Positions 12,863 to 13,056 of a stretch of DNA of 64,000 nucleotides are shown here, piece by piece (within the stretch, counting starts at the first letter, position 1; each line of letters begins with the position of its first letter). Origin of the DNA: Sorangium aterium. GTDB taxonomy: Bacteria > Myxococcota_A > Polyangia > Polyangiales > Polyangiaceae. Position numbers and translations under genes: made by a program. The notes below the pieces were generated by a model. That model saw only the letters and a program-made list of their open reading frames with translations. It had not been told where the DNA came from and did not search any database. The stretch lies in the NCBI RefSeq assembly GCF_028368935.1, contig NZ_JAQNDK010000007.1, positions 496,001 to 560,000 of the forward strand. The letters are read 5' to 3'.

Positions 12863-13056
12863 GTGAACGTTTACGTGGTCGTGGTCGTTTACGTGGTCGT
12901 GGTCGTGGTCGTGGTCGTGGTCGTGGTCGTGGTCGTCAACGGTAAGCCGTGAACGACCACGACCACGACCACGACCACGTAAACGTTCACGTAAACGACC
13001 ACGTAAACGTTCACGTAAACGACCACGTAAACGTTCACGTAAACGACCACGTAAAC
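12863..13056. repeat. Palindromic hexamer mosaic array
   Basis: The stretch splits into 31 hexamers plus one 8-nt spacer at 12941-12948. The left 13 hexamers are GTGAAC, GTTTAC, GTGGTC (seven in a row near the centre) and GTCAAC. The right 18 are largely the reverse complements: GACCAC (four in a row), GTAAAC and GTTCAC. The right side ends in a 24-bp unit (GACCAC, GTAAAC, GTTCAC, GTAAAC) repeated about three times. The arms can fold into a long hairpin. It lies between the 5' end of the FAD gene and the 3' end of the SulP gene. Confidence 0.95.

Follow-up and report, generated by a model that had tools for sequence, protein, structure and literature searches.

A hexamer mosaic of Sorangium aterium is very probably a mobile hairpin element that lacks the PF05635 gene of its longer relatives

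What kind of sequence is a long mosaic of three hexamers and their reverse complements that stands between two protein genes of Sorangium aterium, and how did it come to be there? The mosaic lies in a stretch of 64,000 nucleotides, here called the window. On one side of it is a putative FAD oxidase gene (11085-12740, minus strand; the label comes from the preliminary description and the true start is possibly further in). On the other is a gene (13162-14775, minus strand) which, recognised by eye, we take to be a transporter of the SulP type, and the insertion is on its downstream side. The listing of open reading frames agrees with the placement first given, beside the start of the FAD oxidase gene, and puts the array between the SulP gene and the upstream side of the FAD oxidase.

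On re-reading the sequence, the words GTGAAC, GTTTAC and GTGGTC and the reverse-complement words of the right arm were found at the place claimed for them (12863-13056), as 12 left-arm words followed by a centre and 18 right-arm words. With the frame shifted, the left arm (12863-12933) can also be read as tandem CGTGAA, CGTTTA and CGTGGT words and the right arm (12956-13059) as their reverse complements. The preliminary description had counted 31 hexamers around an 8-nt centre, which holds if GTCAAC is taken as a thirteenth left word, but GTCAAC is outside the three words. Similarly, the arms consist of reverse-complement words overall but, word for word, are not exact complements. The 24-bp higher-order repeat of the right arm is exact (12971-13059, 3.7 copies at 100% by TRF). 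Between the arms is the core CGTCAACG-GTAAGC-CGTGAACG (12934-12955, plus strand; exact core match at C7:508934-508955), oriented opposite to flank A.

The array has the extent reported for it, but the feature itself is bigger, as conserved flanks and terminal inverted repeats reach 12835 and 13103, and the element that contains the array measures 269 bp. Outside the left arm there is a remnant of flank B (12853-12862), assigned from the flank alignment of 40 arrays; an alignment to flank B agrees at 25 of 30 bases with a score of 15, just under the 99% background of 16. Outside the right arm is flank A, common to window-type copies (13060-13085, minus strand), which equals the flank A consensus at 16 of 20 positions; the consensus has matches genome-wide. 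Degenerate terminal inverted repeats close the element on the left (12835-12852) and on the right (13086-13103), with 3 and 4 mismatches, respectively, in 18 positions to the family end CATAGGCGTTAACCAAGC.

The potential for a very long hairpin, which the preliminary description had proposed, was borne out by folding: the minus-strand RNA of 12835-13103 has a predicted energy of -166 kcal/mol against -94.8 (sd 5.1) for 200 shuffles (z -14), and its complementary ends are able to form a stem. None of the results points in particular to the effect on FAD oxidase expression or chromosome structure that the preliminary description also proposed. No known RNA family was matched at its gathering score: Rfam gave 11 matches on 12600-13300 at E values up to 1, all below that score and to unrelated hairpin families. 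The window holds three other tandem repeats: an array at 29642-29977 of a 42-43-bp GC-rich unit with a short palindrome, whose words are unrelated to the hexamer element (TRF); a 65-bp unit at 47745-47928 in 2.8 copies of 100% identity, which suggests recent duplication; and nested repeats of 24, 48 and 135 bp at 5860-6337, possibly coding.

To begin with the genome itself, the assembly of this strain (13,472,481 bases, 7 contigs) was searched with the window array, and 40 distinct places scored by BLAST. Pattern searches added five window-type copies (L080, L085-L088) and six longer relatives (L081, L082, L084, L089, L090, L093), giving a family of at least 51 related places in the 13.5-Mb genome, 45 window-type and 6 longer. 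The preliminary description had tied its own rejection to the lack of similar arrays elsewhere, and such arrays are present in numbers. A degenerate four-word pattern with up to one mismatch had 527 and 551 matches in the genome against 0 and 1 for the reversed control; this excess, together with a fold far below that of the shuffles, shows that the hexamer array is not a product of chance. Three further places (L079, L083, L091) and many matches in other genomes resemble repetitive coding sequence or other repeats and were not counted.

All of the 40 BLAST places follow a common plan of flank A, left arm, CGTGGT words, core, CGACCA words, right arm and flank B. Their core is CGTCAACG, 6 nt and CGTGAACG, or a variant of it, and their flanks can be aligned outside the word region, being degraded in some copies. 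Some copies have two or four cores (L020, L038, L042, L047). Relative to flank A, the core of the 45 window-type copies has the same orientation in 19 and the opposite one in 13, the window copy included, and could not be assigned in 13. The simplest reading of this flip would be inversion of the loop between the inverted arms, through recombination or template switching. A core search across 59 genomes returned 60 matches, 47 of them in the strain's own genome and the other 13, spread over 10 genomes, all with two mismatches; the core is therefore essentially confined to its own genome among the 59 searched.

Do these copies bear the marks of insertion? Terminal inverted repeats of the form CATAGGCGTTAACCAAGC were found at both ends, with at most 5 mismatches in 18, in 16 elements of the genome. 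The family is short and multi-copy, with 184-355 bp between end matches and no transposase inside. The 12 bases flanking the 16 elements match each other at 9 or more positions in 10 of the 16 and at 11 positions in six, while 240 mismatched pairings reached at least 9 of 12 in 4.6% and at least 10 of 12 in 2.1%. The excess peaks at lengths of 10-13 bp, pointing to a target-site duplication of about 12 bp, which is clear for the family. The candidate duplication of the window copy is weak: the left copy (AGCTCCCCGGGC, 12823-12834) and the right copy (AGCCCCCGGGGA, 13104-13115) agree at only 9 of 12 bases, and the right one falls within a GC-rich, terminator-like hairpin at about 13098-13130. 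The ends and the 12-bp duplication of the Sorangium family presumably resemble those of IS4/IS231-type elements.

The orthologous locus gives the same answer. All five other genomes of the genus keep the SulP gene; three of them (G002, G004, G005) also keep the FAD oxidase beside it, and in all three the spacer between the two genes is without the array. The spacer of G004 (L267) has another, different long palindrome where the window has the hexamer element. From the terminal repeats, the duplications of about 12 bp and the empty orthologous spacers it follows that the window copy is a MITE-like insertion. The MITE features that were tested (terminal inverted repeats, target-site duplication, short multi-copy elements without transposase) are all present, a known parent being the exception: a 14-base end pattern with up to one mismatch had 33 matches in the search for an autonomous parent, nearly all of them known copies, and no pair of them enclosed a transposase-sized interval.

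The nearest MITE with internal tandem repeats is BrickBuilt of Porphyromonas gingivalis, present in 19 copies, which is likewise MITE-like and intergenic, with tandem repeats in its leader and tail and small inverted-repeat ends (PMC4596501). It differs in that its repeats are 23-nt direct repeats in one orientation and without inverted arms, and it has no link to PF05635, the text of that paper having no match for 'S23' or 'four helix' (PMC4596501).

Could the element instead be kept for the use of the host, as a regulatory or nucleoid element similar to REP/BIME sequences or terminators? Its very stable hairpin would suit such a role, and so would its gene contexts. By a home-made GC3 filter for gene calling, the copies are intergenic, and 50 arrays fall 27 times between tandem, 19 times between convergent and only 4 times between divergent genes, compared with 108, 36 and 28 among all 172 neighbouring pairs (L018 and L093 are without a called gene on one side by this crude call, and L082 is counted twice). 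Few copies between divergent genes are, however, what is expected of insertions that do least harm downstream of genes, and avoidance of promoters is equally expected of a selfish insertion. Moreover, the array is absent from the orthologous place in the relatives, and the five other genomes of the genus have no near copy of the core beyond the two-mismatch matches. We consider a host-maintained element unlikely.

The arms of the copies were then compared with each other, with L009 left out as the pattern found no core in it. Rare words are common to both arms of one copy more often than by permutation (cosine 0.428 against 0.144, reached once in 5000; 18 of 43 copies usable). When the common words A and T are included, the arms within a copy resemble each other no more than arms taken from different copies do (835 permutations out of 5000 are at least as high), and the lengths of the two arms are uncorrelated (r 0.05). 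Since the arms lack overall word likeness and vary independently in length, exact pairing is not tightly kept, and close matching of the arms as a sign of selection on pairing was not supported, only rare words being shared and lengths being uncoupled.

These features bring to mind a plain microsatellite, a chance hexamer expanded by slippage and template switching and with no mobile origin, as runs of words and local homogenisation of rare words resemble slippage and arm lengths are uncoupled. A microsatellite is nevertheless very improbable, as at least 51 places have non-repetitive flanks, a core or ends in common, target duplications exceed the mismatched controls and the orthologous spacers are empty; the shared flanks and duplications argue strongly against it. 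We therefore retain the reading of the window copy as a MITE-like insertion.

If the window copy is such an insertion, its longer relatives may tell what it came from. In these, the two arms are separated by an interior. The interior of L081 encodes a protein of 118 residues, with the gene as loop and the hexamer arms as stem. This protein scores 63.1 bits with TIGR02436 (four helix bundle protein; cut-off 24) and has an E value of 3.5e-17 with PF05635 (23S rRNA intervening-sequence protein), and its gene is the only PF05635 gene found in the strain's own genome. S. cellulosum So ceGT47 (G003) has the same arrangement, with a PF05635 gene between hexamer arms (L118). Also in So ceGT47, a decayed PF05635 gene stands between short arms that are followed by flank B and a terminal repeat of the window family (L143), and 55 of 62 bases aligned over the outer flank and terminal repeat are the same as in the short elements. 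L143 thus joins gene, arms and ends within one element. Four others (L082, L084, L089, L093) keep the inner edges of the arms and have lost most of the interior.

With L143, L082, L084, L089 and L093 as direct intermediates, we infer that window-type copies probably derive from gene-bearing elements by loss of the interior. As the outer flanks of L081 and L118 are poor, the link through shared ends depends chiefly on L143 and on those longer relatives that lack an intact gene. Taken together, the window feature is very probably a MITE-like copy, without the gene, of a mobile hairpin element whose longer relatives have a PF05635 gene between their arms.

So ce26 and So ceGT47 have the other clear PF05635 genes of the genus, which stand between inverted arms made of different words, both 7-mers and 6-mers. 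The inverted arms extend over 103 nt at 97% identity in L137 and 169 nt at 83% in L138, and L141 has a pair of PF05635 genes with inverted GC-rich arms and 6-mer arrays further out. The genomes G002, G004 and G005 had no match to PF05635.

The plan of the longer relatives recalls the intervening sequences (IVS) of 23S rRNA, for which the combination of hairpin, gene and heptamers is already known. In Coxiella burnetii the IVS measures 428 nt and forms a hairpin, whose stem is of 28 bp and whose loop holds an S23 ORF; 2-3 tandem heptamers (GACAGAT) precede the ORF, and the origin of this IVS is called unclear (PMC4990558). Shared with the Sorangium elements are a hairpin stem from complementary ends and a PF05635-type ORF in the loop, often decayed in the IVS (PMC4990558); this ORF is present in L081 and L118 and absent from the window copy. 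The IVS differs in being located in the 23S rRNA gene and in its stem of only 28 bp (PMC4990558). The Sorangium and related elements are intergenic and many per genome, their arms are built of short words over a length of at most about 200 bp, and an ORF is missing from most copies of the window family. By this analogy the longer Sorangium relatives look like 23S IVS in plan. The window copy itself is not one, as it is outside rRNA, between two protein genes, and has no ORF.

We next consider whether inverted arms accompany PF05635 genes beyond Sorangium. GTDB was scanned with an alignment of six Sorangium proteins, and the best 80 of 167 relatives were kept, so that these loci are chosen by similarity to those six proteins and several are from one genome. 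PF05635 was also searched for in 282 genomes of the phylum, with 87 exceeding the family cut-off, and thirty further loci were taken from this search. Loci with short flanks were dropped (17 of the 80 GTDB loci for the same-locus control; 16 of the 80 GTDB and 7 of the 30 phylum loci for the mismatched control). The upstream flank was compared with the reverse-complemented downstream flank. Of 63 GTDB loci, 23 scored above the 99th percentile of same-locus control windows; with mismatched pairings as the control, the 99th percentile was exceeded by 17 of 64 GTDB and 19 of 23 phylum loci. In the plasmid set, 3 of 21 loci were dropped as near-duplicates, and 13 of the remaining 18 scored above the 95th percentile of mismatched pairings, 8 of them also above the 99th.

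Within 500 bp, tandem arrays with periods of 5-9 were present on both sides in 51 of 87 PF05635 loci but in only 15 of 404 control windows. For arrays on one side or both, the figures were 77 of 87 and 143 of 404. The periods beside PF05635 genes were mostly 6, 7, 8 and 9. Where both sides had arrays, the words were reverse-complementary with up to one mismatch in 33 of 51 loci, against 4.9% of 2550 mismatched pairings, and an identical word in direct orientation occurred in 10 of 51, against 2.2% of the same pairings. Inverted word arms are present in records of Myxococcota, Bacteroidota, Chloroflexota and Gemmatimonadota, and also in cyanobacterial, Gemmatirosa and Azospirillum plasmids. The association of PF05635 with inverted arms is thus strong but not universal, and loci without arms are equally real.

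Some loci depart from this pattern in their own ways. Three from one genome of the Deltaproteobacteria UBA2409 (L173, L184, L198) share inverted arms, about 55-75 nt long, in which no tandem words stand out clearly, perhaps another type of arm, and three of Flavobacteriales (L176, L187, L189) have strong flank similarity that is direct and not inverted, outside the hairpin model.

Six of the 30 phylum loci (L224, L240, L244, L245, L250, L252) are within 500 bp of a contig end, as if flanking arrays had broken the assembly. Short-read assemblies do break at such arrays, and an artefact of assembly might be suspected behind the mosaics themselves. This suspicion can practically be set aside, as the copies differ mutually in words and flanks and the single-contig genomes of So ceGT47 and So ce26 have the same architecture.

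Movement of such units can be followed in plasmids of Nostocales, where the cyanobacterial heptamers go by the term STRR. Two Nostoc plasmids have a PF05635 unit (arm, gene, inverted arm) on different sides of the gene WP_104899637, and since the units flank it on different sides, each plasmid supplies the empty site of the other. In the empty alleles the adjoining operon genes overlap or leave a gap of a few bases. The comparison was extended to four more sites, each set against a related plasmid without the gene (L284/L287, L261/L291, L280/L289, L259/L290). The break at L284 is clean with a possible 5-base duplication; at L261, L280 and L259, 11-42 bases at the junction of the empty allele have no match. 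One target duplication shared by all PF05635 elements was rejected, as it is about 12 bp in Sorangium and, in Nostoc, either none, possibly 3 bp (ATG) or possibly 5 bp (GTAAT).

Two further plasmids were observed at these sites. Plasmid pNsp_c of Nostoc sp. ATCC 53789 (L288, about 1009-1223) has a sequence resembling the heptamer arms without the four-helix-bundle gene. It lies at the L261 site, where two other plasmids carry arm, gene and arm, and parallels the gene-less window copy. In plasmid pC052_E of Nostoc sp. C052 (L292) only the first part of the four-helix-bundle gene is left at the L284 site, an intermediate of decay.

The plasmid sites also bear on whether the arms belong to the element at all. 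PF05635 genes could prefer pre-existing word arrays, the arms then being the target and outside the element, and word arrays without PF05635 genes are indeed common in Sorangium genomes. At the six plasmid sites, however, the relatives are without gene and arms together, and the breakpoints are at or near the ends of the arms; we regard arms as a mere target as decidedly unlikely. Overall, our conclusion is that a PF05635 gene is often the sign of a mobile hairpin element, that the ribosomal IVS fit as a special case and that the window copy is a gene-less derivative.

Two other settings of PF05635 genes or short repeats are relevant here. Eighteen PF05635 genes have been reported in cas loci, without explanation in the portion of the paper available (PMC3936711), and loci of the cas type on plasmids in our set (L254, L262, L263) have inverted-arm scores of 27, 14.5 and 29.5. 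The heptamers GGGAATC and GGGGA(C/T)T of Xanthomonas and Nostoc are similarly dispersed, intergenic and under-represented between divergent ORFs, with 70 and 75 close inverted heptamer pairs in Xanthomonas, 70 of GGGAATC in Xanthomonas campestris, and a function stated as unknown (PMC4692102). They are not tied to PF05635 in the text of that paper, which has no match for '23S', 'four-helix' or 'XCC0516' (PMC4692102). The solved Xanthomonas protein XCC0516 is a member of the PF05635 family (E 9.5e-16), and we predict that it and the inverted GGGAATC pairs of Xanthomonas belong together. A simple extension to Nostoc PCC 7120 is spoken against by the few inverted heptamer pairs reported there, none of them on its plasmids (PMC4692102).

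A joint reading of all these settings is tentative, and we put it at a little short of an even chance. PF05635/TIGR02436 would be the signature gene of widespread, largely unrecognised mobile elements, in which inverted tandem arrays of 6-9-nt words, with a word peculiar to each element, form the arms and the protein gene forms the loop. The hexamer mosaics of Sorangium and the inverted heptamer pairs of Xanthomonas would then be stages of one thing, together with the ribosomal IVS and the PF05635 genes of cas loci; gene-less arrays would be its debris. PF05635 is reported to resemble Avd, the accessory protein of diversity-generating DGR retroelements, in sequence and structure (PMC10053308). 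No reverse transcriptase, template repeat or variable repeat was noticed with the present elements. Like Avd, the protein may attach to the hairpin RNA and assist a reverse transcriptase acting in trans, with some elements moving through RNA.

Literature searches, which covered neither preprints nor most subscription journals, found no paper on PF05635 genes between inverted word arrays outside rRNA, and the class of PF05635 elements with inverted arrays is new as far as they reached. Searches on hexanucleotide repeats in myxobacteria returned mainly papers on plastid and mitochondrial genomes and nothing on myxobacterial repeats.

As for how such elements would live in a genome, the arms may grow and shrink by slippage, and when the hairpin forms, words may be swapped between the arms and the core flipped as well. 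Judged from its ends and duplications, the Sorangium family would be DNA-transposon-like and now moved by a transposase acting in trans and recognising the terminal repeats. The element is probably mainly selfish. Its transcription would give a long RNA hairpin that RNase III could cut, with less harm to the neighbouring genes, and by analogy to the ribosomal IVS such cutting would explain how these elements are tolerated inside operons.

The origin and mobility of ribosomal IVS, the presence of the IVS protein in cas loci and the meaning of dispersed repeats of 6-9 nt have stood as three separate unsolved items in the literature consulted, and one class of elements, if the joint reading is true, would explain all three. 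Inverted word arrays would then be expected beside any PF05635 gene and lost PF05635 genes at inverted word arrays, and a PF05635 gene found among the genes of an operon may only travel with them, as a passenger that has no part in their work.
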